Source of the DNA: an uncultured Aquincola sp.
GTDB lineage: Bacteria > Pseudomonadota > Gammaproteobacteria > Burkholderiales > Burkholderiaceae
Length of the DNA stretch: 23,039 nucleotides
Direction: 5' to 3'
Assembly (NCBI GenBank): GCA_937883885.1
Contig: CAKZXL010000749.1
Coordinates: forward strand, 1-23,039
The notes under the pieces are model-generated. The model had not been told where the DNA came from. It did not search any database and saw nothing but the letters and a program-made list of their open reading frames with translations. Both the position numbers and the translations under genes were made by a program. This document shows positions 1,006 to 23,039 of the stretch, in pieces (position 1 is the stretch's first letter; the number at the start of each line of letters is the position of its first letter).

Positions 1006-1989
1006 ATGATGGCTGTTCTTTCCCTCTCCCGCACCGCCTGCCTGGCGATCCTGGCCGCTGCCGTGGCCCTGCCCGCCCTGGCCCAGGACGACTGGCCGGC
1101 CAAGCCCATCCGGCTGGTGGTGCCGTTTGCGGCCGGCGGCACGTCCGACGTGCTCGCACGTGCGCTGGGCGCGCAACTGCAGACCTCGCTCAAGCAGACG
1201 GTCATCATCGACAACAAGGCCGGGGCCGGCGGCGTGATCGGCGCCGACAGCGTGGCCAAGTCGCCGGCCGACGGCTACACCCTGCTGCTGGGCACCATCG
1301 CCACCCACGCCATCAACCCGGCGCTGCTGCCCAAGATCCCCTACAACGCGGCCAAGGACTTTGCGCCGGTGATGCTGCTGGGCAGCATCAGCAACGTGCT
1401 GCTGGTGGGCCCCGACCAGCCCTTCAAGAACGTGAAGGACGTGGTGGCCGCAGCCAAGGCCAAGCCGGGATCGCTGCAGTTCGCCTCGGCCGGCCAGGGC
1501 ACCTCGCAGCACCTGTCGGGCGAAACCTTCAAGCTGCTGGCCGGCGTGGAAATCACCCACGTGCCCTACAAGGGCAGCGCCCCCGCCATCCAGGACGTGA
1601 TGGGCGGCCAGGTGCCGATGAGCTTCGAGACCGCGCTGGTGGCGCTGCCGCAGATCAAGGCCGGCAAGGTCAAGGCGCTGGCCGTGACCAGCGCCAAACG
1701 CAGCGCCGTGCTGCCCGAAGTGCCCACGATGCAGGAGGCCGGCATCGCCGGCTTCGACGTGGCCAGCTGGCAGGCGCTGTATGCGCCGGCGGGCACGCCG
1801 CCGGCCATCGTCAACAAGCTCAATGCCGAGCTGGCCAAGATCATTGCCCAGCCCGAGATGAAGGCCCGCATGGACGGCCTGGGCCTGGAATACTCGCCCA
1901 ACACCGCCGAGCAGTTCGCTGCCTTCCAGCGCACCGAGCAGGCCAAGTGGGCCAAGATCGTCAAGGACGGCAACGTCAAGGTTGACTAG
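1006..1989 (+). CDS. Bug/TctC-family periplasmic binding protein (probable aldarate uptake)
   Basis: Extracytoplasmic solute-binding protein of the tripartite tricarboxylate transporter (TTT/Bug) family. A Sec signal peptide with hydrophobic core [14 protein letters not shown] is probably cleaved after residue 26. The mature protein starts [15 protein letters not shown], followed by [11 protein letters not shown], the usual Bug N-terminus and ligand loop. Length (327) is normal for the family. Two ATGs lie in tandem at 1006 and 1009; the GGAG at 1000-1003 is better spaced for 1009, so the true start may be one codon later. No TctA/TctB membrane subunits are in the window. Its position directly before garD, and divergent from kdgD, suggests that it binds galactarate, glucarate or a related acid; the ligand is inference. 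Confidence 0.92.
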
Positions 1990-1996
1990 ACAAGTG
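1982..1996 (+). repeat. 15-bp sequence repeated inverted at 15060-15074 (copy 1)
   Basis: TTGACTAGACAAGTG spans the stop codon of the Bug gene and the possible start codons of garD. Its exact reverse complement lies downstream of the first DUF4148 gene. The core is almost palindromic (CTTG-TCTAGT-CAAG). It could be a regulator site or coincidence. Confidence 0.35.
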
Positions 1997-3589
1997 ACAC
2001 CCGAAACATCATCGGCGGCGCGGCCGCCGCTGCTTATCTCGATGCACCCGCGCGACAACGTCGCCATCGTGGCCAACGACGGCGGCCTTCCGCCGGGCAC
2101 GGTGCTGCCCTCGGGTCTGGTGCTGCGCGACCAGGTGCCGCAAGGCCACAAGGTGGCGCTGGTGGATCTGGCCGAAGGCGACGCGGTGCGCCGCTACGAC
2201 GTGGCCATCGGCTATGCCGCCCAGCCCATCGAGGCCGGCCGCTGGGTGCACGAGCGCCTGCTGCGCATGCCCGACGCCCGCTCGCTGGACGACCTGCCGA
2301 TGGCCACCGTGCAGCCCGAGCCGCAGCCGCCGCTGGAAGGCTTTACCTTCCAGGGCTATCGCAACCCCGATGGCTCGGTGGGCACGCGCAACATCCTGGC
2401 CATCACGCAGACGGTGCAGTGCGTGGCCGGCGTCACCGACTTCGCGGTGCAGCGCATCAAGGCCGAGCTGCTGCCGCGCTACCCGAACGTGGACGACGTG
2501 GTGGCGCTGGAACACGGCTATGGCTGCGGCGTGGCCATCGACGCACCCGATGCGGTCATTCCCATCCGCACGCTGCGCAACATCAGCCTCAACCCCAACT
2601 TCGGTGGCGAGGTGATGGTGGTGAGCCTGGGCTGCGAGAAGCTGCAGCCCGAGCGGCTGCTGCCGCCCGGCAGCATCGCGCTGGTGGACGAGCGCAACGT
2701 GGCCGACATCGGCACCACGGCCGAGCCGCGGCTGGACGTGACCTGCCTGCAGGACGAGGCGCACGTCGGCTTCATGTCGATGATCGATGCGGTGATGCGC
2801 CAGGCCGAGCTGCACCTGGAACGCCTGAACCGCCGCCGCCGCGAGACCGTGCCCGCCAGCGAGCTGGTGGTGGGCGTGCAGTGCGGCGGCAGCGATGCCT
2901 TCTCGGGCGTCACCGCCAACCCGGCGGTGGGTTACTGCACCGACCTGCTGGTGCGCGCCGGTGCCACGGTGATGTTCTCGGAAGTGACCGAGGTGCGCGA
3001 CGGCATCGCCCAGCTCACCGCCCGCGCCACCACGCCCGAGGTGGCCGAGGCCATGGTGCGCGAGATGGCCTGGTACGACGCCTACCTGGCCCGCGGCCGG
3101 GTGGACCGCAGCGCCAACACCACGCCGGGCAACAAGAAGGGCGGCCTGTCCAACATCGTCGAAAAGGCGATGGGCTCCATCGTCAAGAGCGGCAGCGCGC
3201 CGATCTCGGGCGTGGTGTCACCGGGCGACAAGGCCACCAGCCGCGGCCTGCTGTACGCCGCCACACCGGCCAGCGACTTCATCTGCGGCACGCTGCAGAT
3301 GGCCGCCGGCATGAATCTGCATGTGTTCACCACCGGCCGCGGCACACCCTACGGCCTGGCCCAGGTGCCGGTGATCAAGGTGGCCACCCGCAGCGACCTG
3401 GCGCGGCGCTGGCACGACCTGATGGACGTGGACGCCGGCCGCATCGCCACCGGCGACAAAACCATCGAGGAGGTGGGCTGGGAGCTGTTCCACCTGATGC
3501 TGGACGTGGCCAGCGGCCGCAAGACCTGGGCCGAGCACTGGAAGCTGCACAACGCGCTGGTGCTGTTCAACCCGGCGCCGGTGACCTGA
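1994..3589 (+). CDS. garD: galactarate dehydratase
   Basis: UxaA/GarD-family iron-dependent dehydratase. It converts meso-galactarate to 5-dehydro-4-deoxy-D-glucarate, the substrate of the divergent kdgD product. The 531 residues are close to E. coli GarD (about 523). An N-terminal SAF-like part contains [13 protein letters not shown]. The catalytic part has GTRNILAIT near residue 130, [10 protein letters not shown] (C178), [11 protein letters not shown] (C214) and [12 protein letters not shown] (C297), all characteristic GarD blocks. Three starts are possible: TTG 1982, which overlaps the Bug stop codon, GTG 1994 and ATG 2042. I chose GTG because TTG leaves no room after the AAGG at 1978-1981, and ATG cuts close to the conserved core. 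It is translationally close-coupled to the Bug gene. Function is very likely; the start is uncertain. Confidence 0.93.
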
Positions 3590-3616: not shown

Positions 3617-4925
3617 TCAGGCGACGCGGAACACCGCCACCGCCTGCACCAGCTGCTGGGCCTGGGTGCGCAGGCTCTCGGAGGCGGCGGCGCTTTCTTC
3701 CACCAGCGCGGCGTTCTGCTGCGTGGCCTGGTCCATCTGCGTCACCGCCTGGCCTACCTGGTTCACGCCGGCCGACTGCTCGTTGCTGGCCGAGCTGATC
3801 TCGGCCACGATGTCCGTCACCCGCTGGATGGCGGTCACCACGTCTTGCATGGTCTGGCCGGCTTCGCCCACCAGCGCGCTGCCCTGCTCCACCCGCTCCA
3901 CGCTGGTGGCGATCAAGCCCTTGATCTGCCGCGCCGCTTCGGCGCTGCGCTGGGCCAGGCTGCGCACTTCACCCGCCACCACCGCAAAGCCGCGGCCCTG
4001 CTCGCCGGCACGGGCGGCTTCCACGGCCGCATTCAGCGCCAGGATGTTGGTCTGGAACGCGATGCCGTCGATGGTGCCGATGATGTCGGCGATCTGCTGC
4101 GACGAGTCGTCGATGCTGCGCATGGTGTCGACCACGCGCCCCACCACGCTGCCGCCCTGCTGCGCCACCTGCGAAGCCCGCAAGGCCAGCTGGTTGGCCT
4201 GCTGGGCGTTGTCGGCGTTCTGCCGCACGGTGCTGGACAGCTCGTCCATCGAAGCCGCGGTCTGCTGCAGCGCGCTGGCCTGCTGCTCGGTGCGGGCGCT
4301 GAGGTCGCTGTTGCCCGCCGCGATCTGCGCACTGGCGGTGGCCACGCCATCGGCGCCGTGGCGCACGCCGGTGGCAATGCCGCGCAGGTTGGCCTGCATG
4401 GCGCCCAGCGCCGCCAGCAGGCGTCCCAGCTCGTCCTTGCCGCCATCGGGCATGGGCCGGCTCAGGTCGCCTTCGGCCATGCGGCCGGCTTCTTCCACCG
4501 CCTGAGAGGCCTTGCGCGACAAGGCGCCCGACACCGCCCAGGCCACGCCCAGACCCAGCAGCACCATCAAGGCCAGGCCCGACAGCGAGGCCACCCGCGC
4601 GGTGGCATAGGCCGAAGCGCTGGCCTCGGCACTGGCCTTGCTGCCATCGGCGTTGAGTTGCACCAGGCTTTCCAGGGCCTTGAGCACCTCTTCGTACGAA
4701 GCCGAACCGGCGGCGTTCATCGTCGCCGGAGATCAACGCCTGATAGGCCTTGGCCTGCTGGTCGATGCGCGCCGACAGCTCACCGATCTGGCGCACGTAG
4801 TCTTCGACGGCTTTCGGGTCTTCAGCCCCCAGCACCATGCGCAGGCGCGCCACGCGGTAGGCCATCGCATCGCTGCGCACGTCGCCCAGGGCCTGGATGC
4901 TGGGCAGCCAGTTCGTGTACTTCTT
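3617..4925 (-). pseudogene. methyl-accepting chemotaxis protein, 5'-truncated and frameshifted
   Basis: Remains of a transmembrane chemoreceptor. The 3' part (4720-3617 reading leftward) encodes a TM helix (VASLSGLALMVLLGLGV), a HAMP region and a full cytoplasmic signalling domain with tip IIGTIDGIAFQTNILALN, ending AVAVFRVA. The 5' part lies in another frame (about 4925-4725) and encodes NWLPSIQALGDVRSDAMAYR and later YQALISGDDE, typical of 4HB_MCP sensor domains. At about 4715-4725 the frames switch. The stretch usually found between LISxDDE and the following helix is also missing, so a small deletion with frameshift is likely. No first TM helix or plausible start exists upstream, because the second Bug gene begins there. 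A product from ATG 4720 would keep one TM helix plus the signalling domain, so residual function cannot be excluded. A sequencing error would not explain the missing 5' end. Confidence 0.8.
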
Positions 4926-4991: not shown

Positions 4992-6014
4992 TCAGTCCGG
5001 CTTGATGCGCGCCCGCGCGATCACCGGCTGCCAGCGCCGCTGCTCTTCGGCGATGAAGCGTGCGAACTCCTGCGGGCTGCTGCCCACGGCAATGGCCGAG
5101 TCGTTGGACAGCCGCTCCAGCGCGGCAGGCTCCTTCACCGCACGGGCGGCGGCCGCGGCCAGCTTGTCCGCATACGCGGGCTGCAGGTTGGCCGGGGCCA
5201 TCAGGCCGTACCACTGCGTCATCTCGAAGCCGGGAAAGCCCTGCTCGGCCACCGTGGGCACATCGGGCAGCTGCGGGATGCGCTGCGTGGTGCCGGTGGC
5301 AATGCAGCGCAGCTTGCCCGTCTTGATGAACTGCAGGATGGCCGGGGCGCCCACCGCCGCCGCGTCCAGCCGGCCGGCGATCAGGTCGGTGAGCTGCGGG
5401 CCGGTGCCGCGGTAGGGCACGTGCAGCACGAAGGTGCCGGTGGCCGCCTTCAGGTACTCGAAGGCCAGGTGCCCGGCGCTGCCGTTGCCGGCCGAGCCGT
5501 AGTTCAGCCGCCCCGGCTTGCTGCGCGCCAGCGCCACGAAGTCCTGCAGGTTCTTCACCGGCAGGTCGGGGTGCACCACGTACAGGCTGGGCACCTTGGC
5601 CAGCAGCGAGATGGGGCGGAAGTCGCGCACCGGGTCGTAGGGCAGCTTGGCAAAGATGTAGGGGTTGACCGCCAGCGTGCCGATGTGGCCCAGCACCAGC
5701 GTGTGCTGGTCGTCGGCCCGCGCCACTTCGGCCATGGCCACGTTGCCGGCGCCACCGGGCTTGTTGTCCACGTACACCGACTGGCCCAGGCTCTTGCTCA
5801 GCTCGGCCGCGGTGGCACGGGCCACGATCTCGGAGCTGCCGCCGGGCGCGAACGGCACCACCAGCCGCACCGCATGGCTGGGCCAGGCCGCCTGCGCACG
5901 CACCGCTGCAGGCAGGCAGAAGGACGCGCCGGTGCCGGCAGCCAGCTGTAACCATTGGCGGCGCCGCAGGCCGGCCGCGAACGGGGGAAGGATCAAGGGG
6001 CGGGGGATGCTCAT
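4992..6014 (-). CDS. Bug/TctC-family periplasmic binding protein, orphan
   Basis: Second TTT-family solute-binding protein, 340 residues from ATG 6014. The N-terminus carries RRRQWLQLAAG at residues 17-27, a twin-arginine-like motif followed by a short hydrophobic stretch and a possible cleavage site at VRAQA (38-42). This suggests Tat export, where the first Bug protein has an ordinary Sec peptide. The mature part begins AWPSHAVRLVVPFAPGGSSEIVAR, the diagnostic Bug start. It has no membrane subunits or catabolic genes beside it, which is usual for the many orphan Bug genes of Burkholderiales, so the ligand is unknown. No clear SD precedes ATG 6014. The frame stays open upstream, but those residues (LQAATLWP) do not look like a signal peptide. 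Divergent from the TPS transporter gene, with a 116-base gap in which I see no clear promoter. Confidence 0.9.
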   Translation of the reverse strand: MSIPRPLILPPFAAGLRRRQWLQLAAGTGASFCLPAAVRAQAAWPSHAVRLVVPFAPGGSSEIVARATAAELSKSLGQSVYVDNKPGGAGNVAMAEVARADDQHTLVLGHIGTLAVNPYIFAKLPYDPVRDFRPISLLAKVPSLYVVHPDLPVKNLQDFVALARSKPGRLNYGSAGNGSAGHLAFEYLKAATGTFVLHVPYRGTGPQLTDLIAGRLDAAAVGAPAILQFIKTGKLRCIATGTTQRIPQLPDVPTVAEQGFPGFEMTQWYGLMAPANLQPAYADKLAAAAARAVKEPAALERLSNDSAIAVGSSPQEFARFIAEEQRRWQPVIARARIKPD

Positions 6015-6130
6015 GGGCCAGAGGGTAGCGGCTTGCAGTACCGCCACGCCCAGGCACTTGTCGGGATGCCCGCGGCCACGGGGCAGGCGTATCCTCGGCC
6101 GCCCCGCTTGCACGGGCACGAAAGGACGGC

Positions 6131-7789
6131 ATGAACGCTTCTTCGGACCGCCGGTGGCGGTGGCAGTGCATCCCGCTGATCGGCTGCCTGGCGGCCACGG
6201 CACCGGCCTGGCCCCAGGCCACGCCGCTGGTGGCGCCCGACGCACCGGCCGAAGCACCCGCCAGCCGCCCCGAAGGCCCGCGCCTGCGCGTGACCGGCTT
6301 CCAGGTGCAGGGCAACACCTTGCTGCCGGCCGAGCAGGTGCAGGCCGCGCTGGCGCCCCATGCCGGCCAGCGCACTGCGGAAGAACTGCAACGCGCCGCC
6401 GCCACGCTGCAGGCCTTGTATGCCCAGGCCGGTTATGGCGGCGTGGTGGCCTTCGTGGCGCCGCAGTCGGCCGCTGATGGCGTCGTCACCATCACCGTGG
6501 TGGAAGGCCGGCTGGCGCAGGTGGCGGTGAGCGGCCAGCGCCAGTTCAGCGAAGCCAACGTGCGGGCCAGCCTGCCCGCGCTGGCCGAGGGCCAGACACC
6601 GCGGCTGAACCAGCTGGACGCCCAGGTGAGCATGGCCAACGAGAACCCGGCCAAGCAGCTGCAGGTGTTGCTGCAGCCCGGCGCCGGCCCCGGCCAGACC
6701 GATGCCCGCGTGACCGTGGCCGAGCAGCCGGTGCAGCGCTGGACGGCCACGCTGGACAACCGCGGCAACCACCGCACCGGCCAGCTGCGCGCCAGCCTGG
6801 GCTGGCAGCACGCCAACCTGAGCGACCGCGACGACGCGCTCACGCTCAATGCCCAGACCGCGCCCGACAAGCCCAGTGCGGTGAAGGTGCTCAGCGGCAG
6901 CTACCGGCTGCCGCTGTATGCGCAGCGCAGCTTCTTCGATGCCTACGCCGCCTGGTCCGACGTGGACGGCGGCACCACCAGCACCCTGGCCGGTGCGCTG
7001 AGTTTTGCCGGCCGTGGCCGCCTGGCCGGCGTGCGCGGCACGCTGCTGCTGCCCCGCTGGGGCGAAGCCGACCAGCGGCTGGCCCTGGCGCTGGACTACC
7101 GCGCCTACCTCAACAGCTGCGAGATCGCCGGCCTGCCGCCGGGCGCCTGCGGCCCGGCGGGCGAAAGCGTGTCGGTGCAACCGCTGTCGCTGGAGTACTC
7201 GGTGCAGCGGCCGGGGGCGGTGGCCCTGGGCCTGGCCATCGGCCTGCACCACAACCTGCAGCTGGGCGGCGGCCATGCACGCAGCAGCCAGTTCGAGGCG
7301 GTGCGCGCCGGCGCCGAGCCGCACTTCACCGCACTGCGCGGCACGGTGTTCGTCGGCGGTCAGCCGCTGGAAGGCTGGGACCTGCAGCTGCGCGCGGCCG
7401 GCCAGTTCACCGACGATGCGATGGTGCCGGGCGAGCAGTTCGGCATCGGCGGCGTGGCCTCGGTGCGCGGCTACCGCGAACGTGAGCTGGCCGGCGACCG
7501 CGGCCTGCAGGCCACGCTGGAGCTGGCAGGCCCCGAGCTGCTGCGCAGCGGTGGCAGCGCCACGCTGCGTGCGCTGGGCTTCTTCGACGCCGGCTGGGTG
7601 GCCAACCGCGCCGGCCTGCCCTGCGAAGGCAACCGCGACGAATGCAGCCTGCGCGCGGCCGGCCTGGGCCTGCGTGGCAGCGTGGGCCGCTGGCAGGCGC
7701 AGCTGTACCTGGCGCAGGCCTTCAAGGCCGCCCCGCAGACCGACCGCCACGACTGGCGCGCCCACGTGGCCGTGAGCACCAGTTTCTGA
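6131..7789 (+). CDS. two-partner secretion outer-membrane transporter (FhaC/ShlB/HecB family)
   Basis: TpsB-type Omp85-superfamily transporter that moves one TpsA exoprotein across the outer membrane. 552 residues. Signal peptide to about residue 30 (TAPAWPQA). First POTRA about 51-125 (RLRVTGFQVQGNTLLPAEQV), second about 127-199. The 16-strand barrel region runs to the C-terminus, with VRGYRERE at 445-452, the conserved loop-6 motif, then ALGFFDAGW, and a terminal aromatic residue (TSF) as in outer-membrane barrels. ATG 6131 follows AAAGGA with good spacing. Two close cysteine pairs, C330/C340 and C498/C505, lie in segments that look like surface loops and may form disulfides. The gene ends 31 bases before the exoprotein gene, so the two form a TPS operon and this is almost certainly its dedicated transporter. 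Confidence 0.95.
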   Translation: MNASSDRRWRWQCIPLIGCLAATAPAWPQATPLVAPDAPAEAPASRPEGPRLRVTGFQVQGNTLLPAEQVQAALAPHAGQRTAEELQRAAATLQALYAQAGYGGVVAFVAPQSAADGVVTITVVEGRLAQVAVSGQRQFSEANVRASLPALAEGQTPRLNQLDAQVSMANENPAKQLQVLLQPGAGPGQTDARVTVAEQPVQRWTATLDNRGNHRTGQLRASLGWQHANLSDRDDALTLNAQTAPDKPSAVKVLSGSYRLPLYAQRSFFDAYAAWSDVDGGTTSTLAGALSFAGRGRLAGVRGTLLLPRWGEADQRLALALDYRAYLNSCEIAGLPPGACGPAGESVSVQPLSLEYSVQRPGAVALGLAIGLHHNLQLGGGHARSSQFEAVRAGAEPHFTALRGTVFVGGQPLEGWDLQLRAAGQFTDDAMVPGEQFGIGGVASVRGYRERELAGDRGLQATLELAGPELLRSGGSATLRALGFFDAGWVANRAGLPCEGNRDECSLRAAGLGLRGSVGRWQAQLYLAQAFKAAPQTDRHDWRAHVAVSTSF

Positions 7790-7808
7790 GCGCCCCCGCA
7801 TGCACGAC

Positions 7809-7820: not shown

Positions 7821-10800
7821 ATGCGAAGCAGCTTGATCCGCGACACGGCCCGTCGGCCGCAACCCCATCCACTGGCCGCCGCGCTGGCCCTGTGCCTGGC
7901 CGGCCCGGCCGCGCTGCAGGCCCAGGCGCTGCCCGGCGGGCTGCAGGTGGTGCAGGGCCAGGCCACGGTGGACACGGCCGGTGCCCGCATGACCATCACC
8001 AACAGCCCCAACGCCATCCTCAACTGGCGGTCGTTTTCCATCGGGGCGCAGCAGTCGGTGCACTTCAACCAGGCCAGCAGCGCCAGCCAGGTGCTCAACC
8101 GGGTCACGGGCACCGACCCCTCGTCCATCCTGGGCAGCCTGTCGAGCAACGGCCAGGTGTGGCTGCTCAACCCGCACGGCGTGCTGTTCGGCGCCGGCGC
8201 GCGGGTGGACGTGGCGGGGCTGGTGGTGTCCACGCTCAACCTGCCGGATGCCGACTTCCTGGCCGGCCGCTACCGGCTGGGCCCGGCGGCCCAGGCGCTG
8301 GCCGGTGAGGGCCGCATCGTCAACCAGGGTGAGCTGCGCACGGCCTCGGGCGGGCGGGTGGCGCTGCTGGCCTCGGCCGCGGGCATGGCCAACGAAGGGC
8401 TGATCGAGGCGCCCGGCGGCCAGGTGCTGCTGGCCGCGGGCCAGCAGATCGAGCTGGTGGACACGCAGGCGCCGAACCTGGCCTTGCGCGTGATCGCGCC
8501 GGCCGGCGAGGCGCTGAACCTGGGCCGCGTGATTGCGCCCGCGGGGCGCATCGACGTGCAGGCCGCCATCGTCAACCAGCAGGGCGTGATGCGGGCCGAC
8601 GCGCTGGCCGTGGGCCCGGGCGGCGAACTGGTGCTGCAGGCCACGCAGCAGCTGACCCTGGCGGCCGGCAGCCAGACCACCGCCCGCGGCGGCACCGAGG
8701 CCGGCCGCGGCGGGCGCATCACGCTGGATGCGGGCGCCCAGGGCACGGCGCTGGTGGCCGGCACGGCCGACGTGACCGCACCGCAAGGCCAAGGCGGCAC
8801 GCTGCAGCTGCTGGGCCGGCAGGTGGGCGTGCTGGACGGCGGCGTGCTGGATGCATCGGGCCGCAGCGGTGGCGGGCAGGTGCTGGTGGGCGGCGGCGCC
8901 CAGGGCGCCGACCCCAGCCTGCGCAATGCCCAGGCCGCCTACGTCGGCCCGCGCGCCACGCTGGCCGCCGATGCCACCGGCCTGGGCGATGGCGGGCAAG
9001 TGGTGGTGTGGGCAGACCAGGCCACGCGGGCCTATGGCCGCTTCAGCGCGCTGGGCGGGCCGCTGGGCGGCGATGGCGGCCTGGTGGAAACCTCGGGCGG
9101 CTGGCTGGACGCAAGGCCCGCCACCGTGGCCGTGCAGGCGCCGCGCGGGCGCGCAGGCACCTGGCTGCTGGACCCCAACGACATCACCATCGTGGCCAGC
9201 GGCAGCGACACCAACATCAGCCCCGGCCCCGACTTCACCAGCACCAGCGATGGGGCGCAGATCAACGCAGCCACCATCGTCAGCGCACTGCAGGCGGGCA
9301 ACAACGTCAGCATCACCACCGGCACCGGCACGCCGGACAGCGAGGCGGGCGACATCCGCATGCAGTCGGTGGACATCCTGCCCACGCTGTCCACGCCGGT
9401 GTCGTTGACGCTCAATGCGCACAACCACATCCAGCTGGACAGCAGCCGCATCGAGGCCAGCGGCGCGGCGCTGGGCATCACGCTCAATGCCGCCAAGGAC
9501 GGCGGCACCGGCGCCATCGCGCTGTCGGGCAGCACGCTCAACAGCAACGGCGGCAACATCGTGCTGGGCGGTGGCGGCATCGCCAGCGGGCCGCAGGGCA
9601 CGGCCGGCTTCAGCGCCGCGGTGGGCGCCGACCCTGACTTTGCGAACGGCATCTGGCTGCGCAACGGCAGCGCGCTGCGGGCGGGCAACGGCAGCATCAC
9701 CCTGCGCGGCGCCACGGTGCAGGAAGGCAGCCTCAACGCCGGCGTGCTGGTGGACGACAACAGCACCCTGCAGGCCCGCGACATCGTGGTGCAGGGCTGG
9801 AGCAACGGCGGCCTGCTGCGCACCGGCGTGCACCTGTCCAGCGGCACCCTCACCGCCACCCATTCGCTGCGGGTGGAAGGCACCGCGCTGGCCGCCACCG
9901 ACCCTGGCGGCAGCAACCCCTCCAACCCCAGCCTGGTGGCGGGCGTGCGGGTGGAAGACGCACAGCTCGTCGTGCAGCCGCCCGCCCCCGACCCCACCGC
10001 CTCGCTCACGGTGGTGGGCACGGCCACGGTGTCGGGCAGCGCCTCTTCAGGCGGGCGCGCCGTCAGCGGTTTCGGCGTGAGCCTGCTGCGCAGCTCCTCA
10101 AGCCCGGGCAGCGCCCAGCTGCTGGCCCGCAACGGCGCCAGCGTGTCGGTGGAAGGCACGCTCAACTCGGCCGATGGCGGCTATGCCCTGCTGCTGGCCT
10201 CGACCGACTACGGCGGCGACATCATCGACGCGGCGGGCGCCTCGTCGCTGACGATCGCGGCCAGCGGCGCCGGCCAGCGGCTGGGGCTGAGCGGCGGCAA
10301 CATCGTCACGCCCAACGGCGGGCCGGCCACCATCAGCTCGGCCGGCAGCATCGACCTGGTGGACGGCTCCAACGGCTTTTCCGCCTCCATCAACGGCAAC
10401 GCCAGCAGCCTGTTGATGCAGGCGCAGGACGACCTGCTGATCACCGGCGGCAGCGCCGTCAACTTCAGCGGCAGCAACACGGCGGTCACGCTGGCTTCCA
10501 GCGCGGGCAGCATCGGCCTCAGCGGCGCGCCCTTCGTGGCCAGCGGCGGCACGGTGCGGCTGCTGGCGGCGCAGGTATCGATCGCCGGCAGCAGCACCCT
10601 CAGCAGCGACGCCAGCGGCGATGCGCTGGTGGTGGCCGGCAGCGGCGGCGGCAATGTGCAGACCTTTGCGCACACCGCCGCCAGCCCGGCCTTCAACACG
10701 CCCAACGGCCGCTGGCTGGTGTACGCCACCAGCCCCGACGACGCCGGCTTCGACCCCGGCGCACTGGTGCACGACTTCCGCCAGTACGACGCGGTGTACG

Positions 10801-13262
10801 GCAACGCGCCCACCGTGCAGGGCAGCGGCAACGGGCTGCTGTTTTCGGTGGCGCCCACGCTGGCGCTGAGCGGCGCGGTGAGCAAGGTGTACGACGGCAA
10901 CACCACGGTGCAGGTGTCGGCCGCCGAGGTGCAGGCCGGCACCGGCGCGCTCACCGGCGACACCGTGACCGTCGGCTCCGGCGCAGGCACCTATGCCGAT
11001 GCGCATGTGGGCAGCAACAAGGCCGTGACGGTGAATGCCGCGCTGGTGACGGCCACCGACGAAGACGGCAAGCCGGTGTACGGCTACCGGCTGGGCACGG
11101 TCACCGGCAACATCACCCCGCGCAGCCTGACCGTGGGCAGCCTGCAGGTGGCCGACAAGGTGTACGACGGCCAGACCACCGCCAGCGTGAGCAGCAGCAG
11201 CGGCCTGGTGGGCCTGGTGGCCGGCGAAAGCCTGCAGCTGCGGCTCGACGGCCGCTTCAGCGATGCCAACGTGGGCACCGGCAAGCCGGTGGCCATCACC
11301 CTCGGCCTGGCCGATGGGGCCGGCGGCAGCGGCCTGGCCAGCGACTACGTGCTGGGCACCACCAGCGCCAGCGGCAGCGCCGCCATCACGCCGCGGCCGC
11401 TCAGCCTCACCGCGGTGGCCGACGGCAAGCTGTACGACGGCAGCGATGCCGCCACGGTGCGGCTGGCGGCCGTCAACGGCCTGGTCAATGGCGAGCAGCT
11501 CACGCTGGGCGTCAGCGGCCGCTTCGCCGATGCCAATGCGGGCACCGGCAAGGCCGTGCAGGTGGCGGTGAGCGCGGCCGACGGCAGCGGCGGCCAGGTG
11601 GCCAACTACCAGCTGCCCGCCACGCTGGCCACCAGCGCCGACATCGGCCAGCGCACCCTCACCTACAACGCCACACCGGTGAGCGTGGCCGCGGGCAGCG
11701 CCTTGCCGGCCTTCAGCGGCCAGGTGGGCGGCTTCATCGAGGGCGAGAACCTGGCCAATGCCACCACCGGCACGCTGCGCTTCAGCAGCCCCGCGACCAC
11801 GGCTTCGCCGGCCGGCCGCTATGCCATCGAAGGCGGCGGGCTGGCGGCGCTGAACTACCGCTTCGAGCAGGCGGCCGGCAACGCCACCGCGTTGACGCTG
11901 CTGCCCGTGGCGGCCCCGCCGCCACCGCCGCCGCCCCCCACCCCGCCGGTGGACACGGTGGTGCCGCTGCAGCAGTCCACCCCGGTGGAATTGGCCGTGG
12001 CCCTGGCCACGCTGCTGCCCGAGCCGGTGCTGCCCGCACCGTTGGCCAACCGCGCACTTGACGCCACCCAGGCACTGGCGCCGGCCACCGCCGGCGGCGG
12101 CAGCAGCCCGCGCTTTGGCACCGTGCCGGTGGGCAGCCTGTCGCAAGACGCGCTGGCCGCCTTGCTGGCCTCGCGCGACCGCCTCAAGCAGCAGATCTTT
12201 GCGCAGGCGCTGGCCGAGCTGGCGGCCCGGCCACAGGCCGCCGATGTGCCCGCATGCGCCACGCCCGAGCAGGCCGAGACGGGCCTGTGCATGATCACCG
12301 TCAAGCAGCGCGACGAGGTGCGCGCGGCGCGCGAGGCGCGGCTGCAGCAGGCCCCCGCCAACGATGCAGCGGCCGCCCCCGCGCCGGCCCCGGCGCCCGC
12401 TTCACCGGCGGCCACGCCGGGGGCCCCGGTGGCCCCGCCGGCACCCTCCGCGCCGCCGGTGGCTGCCGCCTTGCCGGCGGTGACGCCGCCGCTCTTTCCC
12501 ATCCGCGCTGCGGTGCGCAGTGCCGCACTGCCGCAGATACAGCGCAAGCTGGCGGTGCTGATCGGCACCGACCGCTATGCCGACACCCGCATCCCGCAGC
12601 TGGACAACGCCGCCAGCGACGCCAGCGCCGTGGCCGCGCTGCTGCAATCGACGCTGGGCTACGAAACGCTGGTGATTGAAAACGGCAGCAAGGACACGGT
12701 GATGCGCACGCTGAACCGGCTGGCCACCGAAGTGGGGCCCAACGACTCGGTGGTGCTGTACTACGCCGGCCATGGCGCGGTGGTGCCCACCACCGGCGAG
12801 GGCTACTGGCAGCCGGCCGATGCCGATGCCACGCGACCCGAGACCTGGATCAGCAATGCCGACATCGGCCGCGCGGTGGAACGGCTGGGCGCCACGCAGG
12901 TGGCCTTGATCTCGGACAGCTGCTACTCGGGTACGCTGGTGTCCGATGCCCGCATCCGCGCCACCACCGCGGCGCTGGACCCCGGCCAGGTGCTGTCGCG
13001 CCGCACGGCGGTGGTGATGTCCTCGGGCGGCAACGAGCCGGTGTTCGACGCCGGCAAGGAAGGCCACAGCACCTTCGCCTGGAACCTGATGCGCACGCTG
13101 CAGCAGGTGCCCACCTGGCAGCCCGGCGGCAACGTGTTCGAGCGCGTGCGCTTCGCGGTGGCCCGCGAGCTGCCGCAGCGGCCGCAGTACGGCGCGTTCT
13201 CCAACAGCGGCTATGCGGCCGGGGCGGACTACCTGTTCGAGAAGCGCGAGCTCACGCGCTGA
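7821..13262 (+). CDS. TPS exoprotein (filamentous-haemagglutinin type) with YDG repeats and C-terminal caspase domain
   Basis: Predicted secreted protein of 1813 residues, the cargo of the transporter encoded just upstream. In order: signal peptide to about A36 (AALQAQA); TPS/haemagglutination-activity domain (about 37-270) with ILNWRSFSIG, the NPxG motif as NPHG (117-120) and GVLFGAGARVDVAGLV; a Gly/Ser/Ala-rich beta-helix-like region with VETSGGWLDA (about 422) and TWLLDPNDITI (447); three YDG domains beginning K1022, K1113 and K1203; an MBG-like domain from about 1280; a polyproline linker (about 1365-1378); a charged segment with C1479 and C1490; a Pro/Ala linker (about 1514-1557). The C-terminal C14 caspase domain (1575-1813) has LAVLIGTDRY, YYAGHGA (H1651) and SDSCYSG (D1699, C1701), so the dyad is intact. 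D1699, two residues before the Cys, suggests metacaspase-like preference for Arg/Lys. No frameshift is visible. Surface location and protease activity are inferred. Confidence 0.93.
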   Translation: MRSSLIRDTARRPQPHPLAAALALCLAGPAALQAQALPGGLQVVQGQATVDTAGARMTITNSPNAILNWRSFSIGAQQSVHFNQASSASQVLNRVTGTDPSSILGSLSSNGQVWLLNPHGVLFGAGARVDVAGLVVSTLNLPDADFLAGRYRLGPAAQALAGEGRIVNQGELRTASGGRVALLASAAGMANEGLIEAPGGQVLLAAGQQIELVDTQAPNLALRVIAPAGEALNLGRVIAPAGRIDVQAAIVNQQGVMRADALAVGPGGELVLQATQQLTLAAGSQTTARGGTEAGRGGRITLDAGAQGTALVAGTADVTAPQGQGGTLQLLGRQVGVLDGGVLDASGRSGGGQVLVGGGAQGADPSLRNAQAAYVGPRATLAADATGLGDGGQVVVWADQATRAYGRFSALGGPLGGDGGLVETSGGWLDARPATVAVQAPRGRAGTWLLDPNDITIVASGSDTNISPGPDFTSTSDGAQINAATIVSALQAGNNVSITTGTGTPDSEAGDIRMQSVDILPTLSTPVSLTLNAHNHIQLDSSRIEASGAALGITLNAAKDGGTGAIALSGSTLNSNGGNIVLGGGGIASGPQGTAGFSAAVGADPDFANGIWLRNGSALRAGNGSITLRGATVQEGSLNAGVLVDDNSTLQARDIVVQGWSNGGLLRTGVHLSSGTLTATHSLRVEGTALAATDPGGSNPSNPSLVAGVRVEDAQLVVQPPAPDPTASLTVVGTATVSGSASSGGRAVSGFGVSLLRSSSSPGSAQLLARNGASVSVEGTLNSADGGYALLLASTDYGGDIIDAAGASSLTIAASGAGQRLGLSGGNIVTPNGGPATISSAGSIDLVDGSNGFSASINGNASSLLMQAQDDLLITGGSAVNFSGSNTAVTLASSAGSIGLSGAPFVASGGTVRLLAAQVSIAGSSTLSSDASGDALVVAGSGGGNVQTFAHTAASPAFNTPNGRWLVYATSPDDAGFDPGALVHDFRQYDAVYGNAPTVQGSGNGLLFSVAPTLALSGAVSKVYDGNTTVQVSAAEVQAGTGALTGDTVTVGSGAGTYADAHVGSNKAVTVNAALVTATDEDGKPVYGYRLGTVTGNITPRSLTVGSLQVADKVYDGQTTASVSSSSGLVGLVAGESLQLRLDGRFSDANVGTGKPVAITLGLADGAGGSGLASDYVLGTTSASGSAAITPRPLSLTAVADGKLYDGSDAATVRLAAVNGLVNGEQLTLGVSGRFADANAGTGKAVQVAVSAADGSGGQVANYQLPATLATSADIGQRTLTYNATPVSVAAGSALPAFSGQVGGFIEGENLANATTGTLRFSSPATTASPAGRYAIEGGGLAALNYRFEQAAGNATALTLLPVAAPPPPPPPPTPPVDTVVPLQQSTPVELAVALATLLPEPVLPAPLANRALDATQALAPATAGGGSSPRFGTVPVGSLSQDALAALLASRDRLKQQIFAQALAELAARPQAADVPACATPEQAETGLCMITVKQRDEVRAAREARLQQAPANDAAAAPAPAPAPASPAATPGAPVAPPAPSAPPVAAALPAVTPPLFPIRAAVRSAALPQIQRKLAVLIGTDRYADTRIPQLDNAASDASAVAALLQSTLGYETLVIENGSKDTVMRTLNRLATEVGPNDSVVLYYAGHGAVVPTTGEGYWQPADADATRPETWISNADIGRAVERLGATQVALISDSCYSGTLVSDARIRATTAALDPGQVLSRRTAVVMSSGGNEPVFDAGKEGHSTFAWNLMRTLQQVPTWQPGGNVFERVRFAVARELPQRPQYGAFSNSGYAAGADYLFEKRELTR
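10884..11640 (+). repeat. three tandem YDG-domain repeats within the TPS exoprotein
   Basis: Units start at K(V/L)YDG: residues 1022, 1113 and 1203, giving periods of 91 and 90. Shared landmarks are the YDG turn, an F/Y-A/S-D-A-(N/H)-(V/A)-G turn about 45 residues on, and closing strands ending in ITPR(S/P)L in the first two units. YDG units are common stalk modules of bacterial surface proteins and may space the caspase domain from the cell. Confidence 0.8.
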
Positions 13263-13268
13263 CCCTCC

Positions 13269-13850
13269 TCACCGGTTGGTGACGATGGTCACGCGGCGGT
13301 TCTCAGGCGCCTCAGGGCGGGCAGGGTCCACCAGCTCAGTGGCGCCCTTGCCCTGCGGGGCCAGCCGCTCGGGCAGCACGCCGCGCACGTTCACCAGGTA
13401 GTCCACCACCGACTGCGCGCGCTGCTGCGACAGCTTCATGTTGCGGTCGGCCTGGCCGCGCGGGTCGGCATGGCCTTCGACCCGGAAGCCGAAGCCGGCC
13501 AGCTTGTCCGACTGCAGCGCGTTGGCCACCGTGTCCAGCGTGGCCTTGGCATCGGCCGTCAGCTCGGCCGAGTCGGTGGGAAAGGTGATCAGCAGCGACG
13601 CCTTGCCCGGTGCCGCCGGCTTGTTGCTGGGCGGGCGCACCGCGGGCCGGAAGCCGCGGGTCTTGGCATCGGCCGGCGGCTCGGGCGGCTCGATGGCCAA
13701 TGCATCGACCAGCGCCGATTCGGTCACGTCGCCGCTGCGCAGCATGGGTTCGGGGGCCGAGGCGCCGGCCGCGGGCTGTGCGCCCGCCAGCAGCGTGCTG
13801 CCGGCCAGGGCCGCCATGCACAGCAGGCGGGCCAGAAGGTGTGGAGTCAT
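13269..13850 (-). CDS. OmpA-family peptidoglycan-binding periplasmic protein
   Basis: 193 residues with an N-terminal signal peptide (LLCMAALAGSTLLAGA, cleavage about residue 24) and no lipobox cysteine. A low-complexity Pro/Ala-rich segment (30-84) follows, then an OmpA C-terminal domain (about 85-193). Its EGHADPRG...NMKLSQQRA block carries the residues that bind diaminopimelate in the family (D129, N137, R144). It would anchor non-covalently to the cell wall. There is no barrel or TM domain. ATG 13850 has an AGGGG about 8 bases upstream on the minus strand. It converges on the caspase exoprotein gene with only 6 bases between stop codons, so pairing with it is possible but unproven. The linker contains KTRGFRP (63-69), a basic segment of the type metacaspase-like enzymes could cut; that is speculation. 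Confidence 0.88.
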   Translation of the reverse strand: MTPHLLARLLCMAALAGSTLLAGAQPAAGASAPEPMLRSGDVTESALVDALAIEPPEPPADAKTRGFRPAVRPPSNKPAAPGKASLLITFPTDSAELTADAKATLDTVANALQSDKLAGFGFRVEGHADPRGQADRNMKLSQQRAQSVVDYLVNVRGVLPERLAPQGKGATELVDPARPEAPENRRVTIVTNR

Positions 13851-20007: not shown

Positions 20008-21423
20008 TCAAGCGCCCGCCCCTTCCCAGCTGCCGCCCAAAGCCCTCACCAGGCCGACGGTGGCCTGGTACTGCGCGGCCCGCACCTGCAGCGCCTGGCG
20101 GCGGTTGCGCAATTCGGTGCGCTGCGCATCCAGCAGGTCGAGCTGGCTGATGTAACCGTTGCGCCAGCGCGTGCCCGACAAGGCCGTGGCCCGGCTGGCC
20201 GAGGCCACCGCGCGCGCCTGCGCCTCGGCCTGGTCGGCCAGCAGTCGCAGCGCGGCCAGCTGGTCTTCGACGTCGCGGAAGGCCACCAGCACCTGTTCGC
20301 GGTAGCCGGCCAGCGCGCCGTCCAGCTCGGCCCGGGCGCTGTCGATGCCGGCCTGGCGGCGGCCGCCGTCGAACAGGGGCATGGACAGCAGCGCGCCCAC
20401 GCCCCAGCTGCGCATCGACCACTTGAAGAGGTCGCCCAGGTCGGAAGAGGCCTGCCCCGCACTGCCGGTGAGCGACACGCTGGGGAACCAGGCGGCCTGC
20501 GCCACGCCCACCCGCGCCTGCGCGGCCAGCATGCTGCGCTGGGCGGCGGCCACGTCGGGCCGGCGCTGCAGCACGGTGCTGGGCACGCCGGGCGGCACCA
20601 CCGGCAGCGCCGCCGTCCAGCCCTGCGGCGGCAGGCTGAAGGTGGAAGCCGGCTCACCGACCAGCACCGCCAGCGCATGTTCCAGCGTGGCGCGGCGCTG
20701 GTCCAGCGCCAGCGCCTCGGCCTCGGTGGCGGCCACCTCGGCGCGCACACGCACCACGTCCAGCTCGGCGATGTCACCGGCCTGCTGGCGCGCTTCGGTC
20801 AGGCGCAAGGTGTCGCGGTAGGCGGCCACGGTGTCGCGCACCAGGGCGCGCTCCTCGTCCAGCGTGCGCAGGGCCAGGTAGGTCTGCGCGGTTTCGGCCT
20901 GCACCAGCAATCGCGCGCTTTGCAGCAGCGCGGCGCGCGATTGCGCATCCAGCTCGGCGGCCTGGCTGGCGCGTGACAGGCGGCCGAACAGGTCGACCTC
21001 GTACTGCAGGTTCAGCCCCACGCTGGCCACGGTGTTGGCCGGGCCGTTGTTGGTCAGGCCCGCCTGACGCGACACGCCGGCCTGCGCGCCCACCTGCGGC
21101 GAACGGGCACTGTCGGTCTGGCGGGCCAGCGCCCGCGCCTGCTGCAGCCGCGCCGCCGCCTGCTGGATGCTGGTGTTCTGCTCGGCGGCCTGGGCCACCC
21201 AGCGGTCCAGCTCGGCATCGCCGAAGCTCTTCCACCATTCACCGCGCGGCTGCGCATCGGCCGGCCGGGCCTGGGCCCAGCGGCCATCGGTTTCCTTGAA
21301 GGCGGCGGGCGTGGCCGGCAGCAGCCGGTCTTCCACCGGCGGCAGCGGCGTGGCGCAGCCGGCGATCACCAGCGCGGCCACCAGCGGCAGCAGGCGCTGC
21401 GCGAATTGCATGCTCTTGTTCAT
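20008..21423 (-). CDS. RND efflux outer-membrane lipoprotein (NodT/OprM family)
   Basis: TolC-like outer-membrane channel of a tripartite efflux pump, 471 residues. Type II signal peptide with lipobox VIAGC (lipidated C23). Two repeats of the OEP domain are seen: the first around EWWKSFGDAELDRWVAQA to LQYEVDLFGRLSRA, the second around VPSTVLQRRPDVAAAQ to LSMPLFDGGRRQAGI. This PDxxxA...F/W-P pattern is diagnostic of NodT-type factors. ATG 21423 has an AGGAG 6 bases upstream. It follows the RND permease by 21 bases on the same strand, so permease and channel are one operon. The adaptor (membrane fusion) gene must lie outside the window, upstream of the permease. Confidence 0.95.
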   Translation of the reverse strand: MNKSMQFAQRLLPLVAALVIAGCATPLPPVEDRLLPATPAAFKETDGRWAQARPADAQPRGEWWKSFGDAELDRWVAQAAEQNTSIQQAAARLQQARALARQTDSARSPQVGAQAGVSRQAGLTNNGPANTVASVGLNLQYEVDLFGRLSRASQAAELDAQSRAALLQSARLLVQAETAQTYLALRTLDEERALVRDTVAAYRDTLRLTEARQQAGDIAELDVVRVRAEVAATEAEALALDQRRATLEHALAVLVGEPASTFSLPPQGWTAALPVVPPGVPSTVLQRRPDVAAAQRSMLAAQARVGVAQAAWFPSVSLTGSAGQASSDLGDLFKWSMRSWGVGALLSMPLFDGGRRQAGIDSARAELDGALAGYREQVLVAFRDVEDQLAALRLLADQAEAQARAVASASRATALSGTRWRNGYISQLDLLDAQRTELRNRRQALQVRAAQYQATVGLVRALGGSWEGAGA

Positions 21424-21444
21424 GTCGTGCTCCTAGTCGCGCGC

Positions 21445-23039
21445 TCAGGCGTCATGCGGGTGGCGGGGCGCGGCCGGGTGCGGCTGCAGGCCGCCGCCGC
21501 CGGGGTGGGCGGGCGCGGTGGCAAAGGCTTCCAGGTGCGGCACCTCGCCATGCAGCTTCAGCGGCCGGTTGCCGGTGAGCTGGCGCAGCAGCACATAGAA
21601 CACCGGCGTGAGGAAGAGGCCGAAGGCCGTGACGCCGATCATCCCGGCGAACACCGCCACGCCCATGGCGCTGCGCATCTCGGCCCCCGCGCCGGTGGAC
21701 AGCACCAGCGGCAGCACACCCATCACGAAGGCCAGCGAGGTCATCAGGATGGGGCGCAGCCGCAGGCGGCTGGCCTCGATGGCGGCCTGCAGCGGCGTGC
21801 GGCCAGCAAACTCCAGCTCACGCGCGAACTCCACGATCAGGATCGCGTTCTTCGCGCTCAGCCCCACCAGCACCACCAGGCCGATCTGCGTGAACACGTT
21901 GTTGTCACCGCCCGAGAGCCACACGCCCGTCATCGCAGCCAGCAGGCCCATGGGCACGATGAGGATGATGGCCAGCGGCAGCGTCAGGCTCTCGTACTGC
22001 GCGGCCAGCACCAGGAACACCAGCAGGATGGCCAGCGGGAACACGATGACCGCGGAGTTGCCGGCCAGGATCTCCTGGTAGGTCAGCTCGGTCCACTCGA
22101 AGCCGATGCCGGGCGGCAGCGTTTCCTTGGCGATGCGCTCGATGGCTTGCCGCGCCTGACCCGACGAATAACCCGGGGCCGGGCCGCCGTTGATGTCGGC
22201 CGACAGAAAGCCGTTGTAACGCATCGCCCGCTCGGGACCGAAGCTGGGCTGCACCTTCAGCAGCGCCGCCAGCGGCACCATCTCGCCGCTGGCCGAGCGC
22301 ACCTTCAGCAGCCCGATGTCGTCGGGCCGCGCGCGGTGGGCAGCATCGGCCTGCACCCGCACCGAGTACGTGCGGCCGAAGCGGTTGAAGTCGTTCACGT
22401 ACAGGCTGCCCAGGTAGATCTGCAGCGTGTCGAACACGTCGGTCACCGCCACGCCCAGCTGGCGCGCCTTGGTGCGGTCGATGTCGGCATACAGCTGCGG
22501 CACGTTGACCTGGTAGCTGCTGAACATGCCGGCCAGCTCGGGGGTCTGGTAGGCCTTGGCCATGAAGGCCTTGGTGGCCGCGTCCAGCGCCTCGTAGCCC
22601 AGCGAGGCGCGGTCTTCCAGCTGCAGCTTGAAGCCGCCCGTGGTGCCCAGCCCCTGCACCGGCGGCGGCGGGAACATCACGATGAAGGCGTCTTCGATCT
22701 GCGCGAACTGCTGGTTCAAGGCCCCCGCGATGGCGCCGGCACTCAGCGCCGCGCTGGTGCGCTCTTCAAACGGCTTGAGGCTGACGAACACCACGCCCGA
22801 GTTGGAGCTGTTGGTGAAGCCGTTGATCGACAGGCCCGGGAACGCGATGGCGTGCTCGACGCCCGGCTGCTTGAGCGTGAGCTCGCCCATGCGGCGGATG
22901 ACCTCGTCGGTGCGGTCCAGCGTGGCGCCGTCGGGCAGCTGGGCAAAGCCGATCAGGTACTGCTTGTCCTGCGCCGGCACGAAGCCGCTGGGCACCGCCT
23001 TGAAAAGGCCGAAGGTCACGGCCACCAGCGCCAGGTACA
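21445..23039 (-). CDS. RND multidrug efflux permease (HAE-1 type, MexF/OqxB-like), 5' end outside window
   Basis: C-terminal half of an inner-membrane proton-driven efflux permease; about 531 of some 1050 residues are here. The visible start is FKAVPSGFVPAQDKQYLIGFAQLPDG, the beginning of the second periplasmic loop. Porter-domain blocks follow (INGFTNSSNSGVVFVSLKPF; GTTGGFKLQLEDR). The last TM set includes VFPLAILLVFLVLAAQYESL, GLVVLVGLSAKNAILIVEFA and MGVAVFAGMIGVTAFGLFL. INGFTNSSNSG with PAQDKQYL resembles the MexF/BpeF/OqxB branch. The tail is unusual in its His, Pro and Gly content (HPGGGGLQPHPAAPRHPHDA). The frame stays open to the window end. Substrates cannot be read from the sequence. 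Confidence 0.93.
   Translation of the reverse strand, partial: YLALVAVTFGLFKAVPSGFVPAQDKQYLIGFAQLPDGATLDRTDEVIRRMGELTLKQPGVEHAIAFPGLSINGFTNSSNSGVVFVSLKPFEERTSAALSAGAIAGALNQQFAQIEDAFIVMFPPPPVQGLGTTGGFKLQLEDRASLGYEALDAATKAFMAKAYQTPELAGMFSSYQVNVPQLYADIDRTKARQLGVAVTDVFDTLQIYLGSLYVNDFNRFGRTYSVRVQADAAHRARPDDIGLLKVRSASGEMVPLAALLKVQPSFGPERAMRYNGFLSADINGGPAPGYSSGQARQAIERIAKETLPPGIGFEWTELTYQEILAGNSAVIVFPLAILLVFLVLAAQYESLTLPLAIILIVPMGLLAAMTGVWLSGGDNNVFTQIGLVVLVGLSAKNAILIVEFARELEFAGRTPLQAAIEASRLRLRPILMTSLAFVMGVLPLVLSTGAGAEMRSAMGVAVFAGMIGVTAFGLFLTPVFYVLLRQLTGNRPLKLHGEVPHLEAFATAPAHPGGGGLQPHPAAPRHPHDA

Follow-up and report, generated by a model that had tools for sequence, protein, structure and literature searches.

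A two-partner-secretion adhesin from an uncultured Aquincola with a C-terminal caspase domain behind an invariant cysteine pair

What would a caspase do at the end of a secreted bacterial adhesin? The question is raised by a gene on contig CAKZXL010000749.1 of an uncultured Aquincola sp. (assembly GCA_937883885.1; the 23,039 nucleotides analysed are called the window), which encodes a protein with an N-terminal two-partner secretion (TPS) domain, a repeat stalk and a C-terminal Peptidase_C14 (caspase) domain. To our knowledge, the cleavage targets of bacterial caspase homologues are mostly unknown; these proteins are discussed mostly for cell death and stress. A first-pass annotation had predicted export of this caspase through the outer membrane and had offered three readings: a surface protease, a contact-dependent effector or a self-processing adhesin. 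The last of these was found to fit best, and we propose, with a probability of roughly 0.4, that the protein is a fibrillar TPS adhesin that is tethered in its pore and has its own built-in processing protease in the periplasm.

The fusion gene is a single open frame of 1813 codons with zero internal stops (Table 1); an alternative in-frame ATG at 7800 would make the protein longer by 7 residues. Matches to the TPS, YDG, MBG_2 and Peptidase_C14 families all exceeded the Pfam gathering scores. YDG was found in three stretches of the stalk (E 8.5e-37), the best at residues 1190-1267, and an MBG_2 repeat at residues 1280-1354 (E 1.2e-10). Among the NCBIfam models, adhes_NPXG exceeded its cut-off and caspase_w_EACC1 (NF047832) scored 83.4 bits, below the NCBI cut-off of 140; PADLOC gave one general caspase model. 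With its N-terminal TPS domain and the adjoining POTRA/ShlB gene the protein is a TpsA protein, for which secretion through TpsB is the route predicted from the families, and its stalk has MBG/YDG-type extension repeats as seen in hook-anchored TPS adhesins such as CdrA. The domain order, the positions of both catalytic residues and the paired transporter just upstream, all named in the first-pass annotation, were thus borne out. Among related loci, 24 showed a TPS domain, and 23 of these have an adjoining FhaC gene, on the upstream side in 22 and on the downstream side in one; the remaining locus, L003, has no sequence on its upstream side. Our own TPS profile overlooks distant TPS domains, and absence by that profile alone carries no weight.

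A search with the caspase part, limited to proteins of 0.55-1.75 times the query length, returned 482 proteins with E no higher than 0.001. TPS, YDG and C14 were precomputed in one protein for 103 of the best 120 of these 482 matches (counted by eye; 1000-3105 amino acids), and therefore the fusion is neither chance nor a frameshift artefact. One match, P0002, does not differ from the query anywhere in the searched caspase part and another, 96% identical over that part, is encoded on a 3.8 Mb contig. Hosts among the matches listed were Aquincola, Roseateles, Ideonella, Piscinibacter, Paucibacter, Leptothrix and Pseudorhodoferax, and the database entries bear the names "YDG domain-containing" and "filamentous hemagglutinin family", a few being called "caspase family". 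Scanning genome contigs turned up 99 relatives; the 79 loci kept extend to other betaproteobacteria and the Desulfobulbaceae. The occurrence of the module is patchy, with 4/150 genomes of the order and 14/250 of the family (one genome, G001, is in both sets). Further, a separate Peptidase_C14 gene (20995-22533) lies about 6 kb downstream of the fused TPS-caspase gene in locus L002.

Table 1 Features of the TPS-caspase locus; residue numbers refer to the 1813-residue fusion protein
Feature	Position	Strand	Basis
FhaC/ShlB-type outer-membrane transporter gene (TpsB), 552 aa	6131..7789	+	Pfam: POTRA_2 + ShlB
TPS adhesin-caspase fusion gene, 1813 aa	7821..13262	+	translation and Pfam
Signal-peptide region, residues 1-36	7821..7928	+	translation judged by eye
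TPS secretion domain, residues 34-212	7920..8456	+	Pfam PF05860, E 2.4e-30; dN/dS 0.25 and 0.09
Stalk, YDG repeats and MBG_2	8601..11930	+	Pfam; dN/dS 0.36-0.71
Helical Cys-pair ("hook") module, residues 1431-1498	12111..12314	+	121-tail alignment; confident model; dN/dS 0.27 and 0.06
C1479, first hook cysteine	12255..12257	+	121/121 tails
C1490, second hook cysteine	12288..12290	+	121/121 tails
Pro/Ala-rich linker	12315..12503	+	translation; lower-confidence in model, helix- and strand-free
Conserved basic junction before caspase, residues 1562-1576	12504..12548	+	alignment of 121 tails
Peptidase_C14 caspase domain, residues 1575-1790	12543..13190	+	Pfam E 1.2e-16; AlphaFold2 model and fold comparison
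Catalytic H1651, in YYAGHG	12771..12773	+	kept in 121/121 aligned tails
Catalytic C1701, in DSCYSG	12921..12923	+	kept in 121/121 aligned tails
OmpA-family gene, 193 aa, signal peptide by eye; convergent	13269..13850	-	Pfam

The C-terminal domain has the caspase fold and the His/Cys dyad, and the loss of the dyad in homologues that the first-pass annotation had considered was not seen, as it is present in 160/160 proteins with the domain. D1600, by alignment the equivalent of the Asp in the C-x-N-D motif of metacaspases, which has a role in accepting Arg or Lys at P1, was kept in 121/121 tails. The domain is therefore predicted to be a working Arg/Lys-type cysteine protease. The junction before it is rich in conserved basic residues (R1562 in 111/121, K or R at 1566 in 89/121, R1575 in 120/121 and K1576 in 121/121). 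The ratios of nonsynonymous to synonymous substitution (dN/dS) mark the stalk, not the C-terminus, as the fastest-evolving part of the protein.

Besides C1701, the protein has only three cysteines, one in the signal peptide and the pair C1479/C1490 before the caspase. This pair is as invariant as the catalytic dyad, which is a new observation, and its position corresponds to that of the Cys loop by which hook-anchored TPS adhesins such as CdrA and HMW1 retain their C-terminus in the periplasm. The C-X10-C spacing was also kept in 39/39 further proteins beyond the alignment, and the pair was present, with a spacing of 6-10, in 95/95 uncut locus sequences. In this count, as in the OmpA count and the caspase tree below, "TPS-type" denotes a TPS match or a caspase score >300 bits; for the count of Cys pairs, L045, L057 (which ends before any TPS domain) and L095 were assigned to this type by hand and L096 to a class of its own. 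A search with the Cys module as a single sequence was weak (7 matches) and was superseded by an alignment (A2). In the model of 384 residues (predicted template modelling score, pTM, 0.88), isolated bridge residues 49 and 62, given by DSSP as residues only, with neither partners nor distances, flank the Cys residues 50 and 61, an arrangement that a closed Cys loop would need.

A related arrangement was found with the caspase on a gene of its own. The exoprotein frames of genomes G001 (3207 codons) and G161 (5123 codons) end in C-X8-C, and a separate caspase gene starts in overlap with the stop codon of each. With the G001 caspase as query, 13 of 200 family genomes matched at E up to 1e-20; the counts given here cover the 10 matches below 1e-100, the query's own included, and 9 weaker matches stand outside them. 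In 10/10 of these loci (8/8 beyond G001 and G161) the frame directly upstream of the caspase has a near-terminal Cys pair, with a spacing of 4-9 and within the last 25 residues. All five loci that are sufficiently long (G001, G161, G231, G339 and G180) have a TPS domain in the exoprotein and FhaC upstream. The caspases have the catalytic Cys motif DACR in 10/10 and, by eye, a GHG motif and a twin-arginine-like (Tat-like) signal in 9/10 (G339 lies outside this reading). Split and fused caspases are only distantly alike and are separated by a very long branch in the caspase tree. Thus, exoproteins with a near-terminal Cys pair are coupled to an exported caspase in either of two ways, fused in one gene or split between adjoining genes. 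In most of the split loci (L147, L148, L158-L167 and L177-L186) a stretch like 'VRTENVAVRLRAGVIAEVGPGRPAT' lies before the Cys pair.

How could such a protein work? The TPS domain and the YDG/MBG stalk would be threaded out through the FhaC-type pore encoded upstream. Export would stop at the Cys-pair module, where a disulfide loop closing in the periplasm would keep the adhesin fixed in the pore. Lying after this pair, the caspase would then stay in the periplasm beside the anchor of the fibre, where it would most likely process the chain around the anchor, in cis or on a neighbouring molecule; such trimming would set how long the adhesin stays on the cell, a job done for CdrA by the separate LapG. 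There are precedents for parts of this model. CdrA, which has MBG2 repeats, is reported to be anchored in CdrB through a cysteine hook, with periplasmic LapG cleaving it close to its C-terminus (PMC11898600, PMC7616799), and the disulfide anchor of HMW1 and HxuA is expected to remain periplasmic (PMC5422565). Since the caspase lies behind the Cys pair, by analogy with these three proteins, and since the split relatives pair a Cys-ended exoprotein with a separately exported caspase, we consider a periplasmic caspase probable. Of the first-pass proposal, the intact caspase in a TPS exoprotein therefore stands but its export through the outer membrane probably does not. Granted a periplasmic caspase, processing and control of retention would be a reasonably likely function. 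The release of the adhesin is held less firmly than the topology because the conserved basic residues lie between hook and caspase and the sole candidate before the hook is not invariant.

Several observations weigh against a tethered adhesin with its own release protease. To free the adhesin, a cut would have to fall ahead of the hook, but no invariant basic site was found there in the 121 tails. The best candidate, position 1411, is Arg in 77/121 and Gly in 34/121, and the pattern [RK]-x(1-2)-[LFVI]-D occurs in only 78/121, which leaves position 1411 as a candidate only; a cut at the conserved basic junction would free the caspase and not the adhesin. LapG (PF06035) is encoded in 8/17 carrier genomes, the two nearest included. 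LapG and the caspase are thus not mutually exclusive, and the idea of the caspase as a replacement of LapG was dropped. The Cys pair is not a general TPS anchor either, as 10 of the 13 caspase-less TPS tails from carrier genomes have no terminal Cys pair (19 tails from 8 genomes were collected; L142, L143, L146, L151, L153 and L155, of unsure frame or end, were left out). The three that end in a pair are L147 and L148, in both of which a caspase gene comes next, and L154. Conversely, the module was not found without a caspase in the searches of 400 genomes, where 20/20 matches carry one. The strongest evidence against the module as a TPS anchor alone comes from stand-alone relatives in Rhodocyclales and others, proteins of 330-470 amino acids with a signal peptide (by eye), a similar Cys module, a linker and the caspase. 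The Cys pair was present in 35/35 uncut stand-alone caspases, i.e. it is not TPS-specific, and among their loci only L035 has an FhaC gene. Because the module is common to the stand-alone caspases and was never seen caspase-free, it may be a regulatory domain of the caspase instead of an anchor.

This leads to the main rival explanation, in which the Cys module is the prodomain or regulatory domain of the caspase, the zymogen cuts itself at the basic junction and acts on other envelope substrates, and the adhesin serves mainly as its carrier or as a sensor. Besides the two observations just named, it would account for the near-invariant R1575 and K1576 and for the stand-alone junctions, 26/27 of which, among those inspected, have at least 2 basic residues before the first strand. 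Further, the pTM of the 384-residue model, taken without the predicted aligned error, suggests packing of module and caspase, and many of the stand-alone caspases, which make up most of L043-L079, have a CHASE2 cyclase, an autotransporter-type beta-barrel and a weak alpha/beta-hydrolase match as neighbours. It is opposed by the split systems, in which a Cys pair of other sequence ends the exoprotein and the caspase is separate. Also against it, in the caspase tree the 35 stand-alone rows lie on one side of a branch (88/91) and two long-branched TPS-type rows join them at 97/99, which is compatible with loss of the TPS part in the stand-alone proteins, although the branches are long and the root is unsure. 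A protein of genome G245 (L104 6425-8386, -) follows FhaC and consists of a signal peptide, a Pro-rich stretch, the Cys module and the caspase; no TPS domain was found in it with Pfam and the stalk is absent. On balance, we regard the prodomain explanation as doubtful.

If the whole chain, caspase included, crossed the outer membrane, the protein would be a protease that works outside. The protease LepA is exported by a TPS system (PMC5422565), and no sequence feature forbids export of the last 320 residues. Against this, the invariant Cys pair, the only cysteines between the signal peptide and the catalytic Cys, is expected to form a disulfide before passage, and the split relatives export their caspase separately, with a Tat-like signal by eye; a surface protease is therefore quite unlikely. 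In a contact-dependent effector, the caspase would be a toxin. The periplasmic C-terminus of CdiA is delivered into a touched cell, and the caspase does sit at the C-terminus of a TPS protein. C-terminal-most caspase domains were also proposed as toxins in polymorphic systems (PMC3482391), but the T5SS (type V secretion system) row of that paper's table gives HINT as the only protease. Moreover, the C-terminus is not variable. A search with the TPS region gave 1244 matches, and among the best 120 of these 111 carry the caspase (110 with C14 precomputed and P0007 by our own profile); the other 9 have neither C14 nor another C-terminal Pfam domain in its place, and most of them seem cut short or run into another frame. 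It is the stalk that varies fastest, and a pre-toxin (VENN-type) domain was not found with Pfam (E threshold 0.001). Among the neighbours conserved across loci, to which this inspection was confined and among which the recurrent one is of the OmpA family, none was recognised as an immunity gene, and in the split form the caspase is unattached to the exoprotein. This reading of the first-pass annotation fits poorly, and we consider it very unlikely. A further idea, unlikely in our view, is outside-in signalling, in which the surface fibre would be a receptor and the hook its relay: binding or loss of the fibre would activate the periplasmic caspase, which would cut envelope proteins, perhaps the OmpA-family partner among them. 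If true, the state of adhesion would drive dispersal or death of the cell through a bacterial surface receptor wired to a caspase, and a single family of envelope caspases would comprise the fused, split and stand-alone forms.

The OmpA-family gene is separated from the fusion gene by 6 bp and lies on the opposite strand. An OmpA gene was found at most 1 kb downstream in 18 of the 43 TPS-type loci with 1.5 kb of downstream DNA, the window included, and on the same strand in all of these except the window and L001. In the set of 250 family genomes, 11/14 carriers vs 9/236 others encode a close OmpA relative (Fisher p 1e-11, without correction for kinship); in G203, which is among the nine, a caspase adjoins it on a cut contig. 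The OmpA-family protein of the window carries the motif TRGFRP after its signal peptide and ahead of the OmpA domain, and TR[GSA][FIL][RK] was found in 20/20 OmpA sequences at most 1 kb from a caspase (18 loci, two with a pair). Of 13 OmpA loci without a caspase in the examined stretch, 8 show the motif in a TRS form and one (G001, where the caspase is 2 kb off) has TRGF. The Arg thus belongs to that OmpA family as such, and the motif was set aside as weak evidence for a caspase substrate site.

Other neighbours were recorded as well. A probable sugar-acid uptake locus adjoins the TPS operon, with a TctC-type receptor (1006-1989, +), a galactarate dehydratase (1982-3589, +), a chemoreceptor (3617-4720, -) and a second TctC-type receptor (4992-6257, -), and genes of a resistance-nodulation-division efflux transporter (ACR_tran) and an outer-membrane efflux protein lie at 20008-23037 (-). 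Some stand-alone caspase loci also have FecR or OmpA. A second caspase-like gene was seen near stand-alone caspases, a WD40-caspase by Pfam in L060 (11225-14212) and weak matches to our own caspase profile only in L052 (2325-5333) and L069 (11835-14870).

How does the proposed tethered adhesin with a built-in caspase compare with known systems? Its parts are known, but neither the fused nor the split arrangement is named in the titles and abstracts of the literature searched, mostly without subscription full texts. The novelty lies in the link, through gene fusion or gene adjacency, between a widespread and strictly conserved caspase and a presumably tethered surface adhesin, and this tie to a named machine gives a short substrate list and a clear place to look. 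The caspase itself resembles metacaspases and orthocaspases (Peptidase_C14) in fold, His/Cys dyad and the C-x-N-D Asp. It differs from the prokaryotic homologues of a 2012 survey of 671 proteins, which in its text names WD40, TPR, Sel1, FGE-sulfatase and others as partners; "haemagg-", "hemagg-" and "adhesin" are absent from that text, figures aside. The same survey predicts a membrane location for 98 and an extracellular one for 30 of its sequences, and secreted or membrane-bound bacterial caspases are therefore not new as such. Caspases in large secreted proteins, proposed to be processing peptidases or C-terminal toxins, are also described for polymorphic toxins (PMC3482391); the routes named there for caspase toxins are type VII secretion, PVC, TcdB/TcaC and type II secretion, the T5SS row holding HINT only. 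With HMW1 and HxuA (PMC5422565) the fusion protein would share a C-terminal region whose disulfide, on the periplasmic side, locks the chain into the pore, but it continues for about 320 residues, caspase included, after the Cys pair. CdrA/CdrB with LapG is alike in its described features: a TPS exoprotein with MBG-type repeats, a paired pore, a Cys pair near the C-terminus and a periplasmic protease, here a predicted one, by the anchor. LapG, however, is a separate protein (Peptidase_C93), whereas the fusion protein has a caspase behind the Cys pair.
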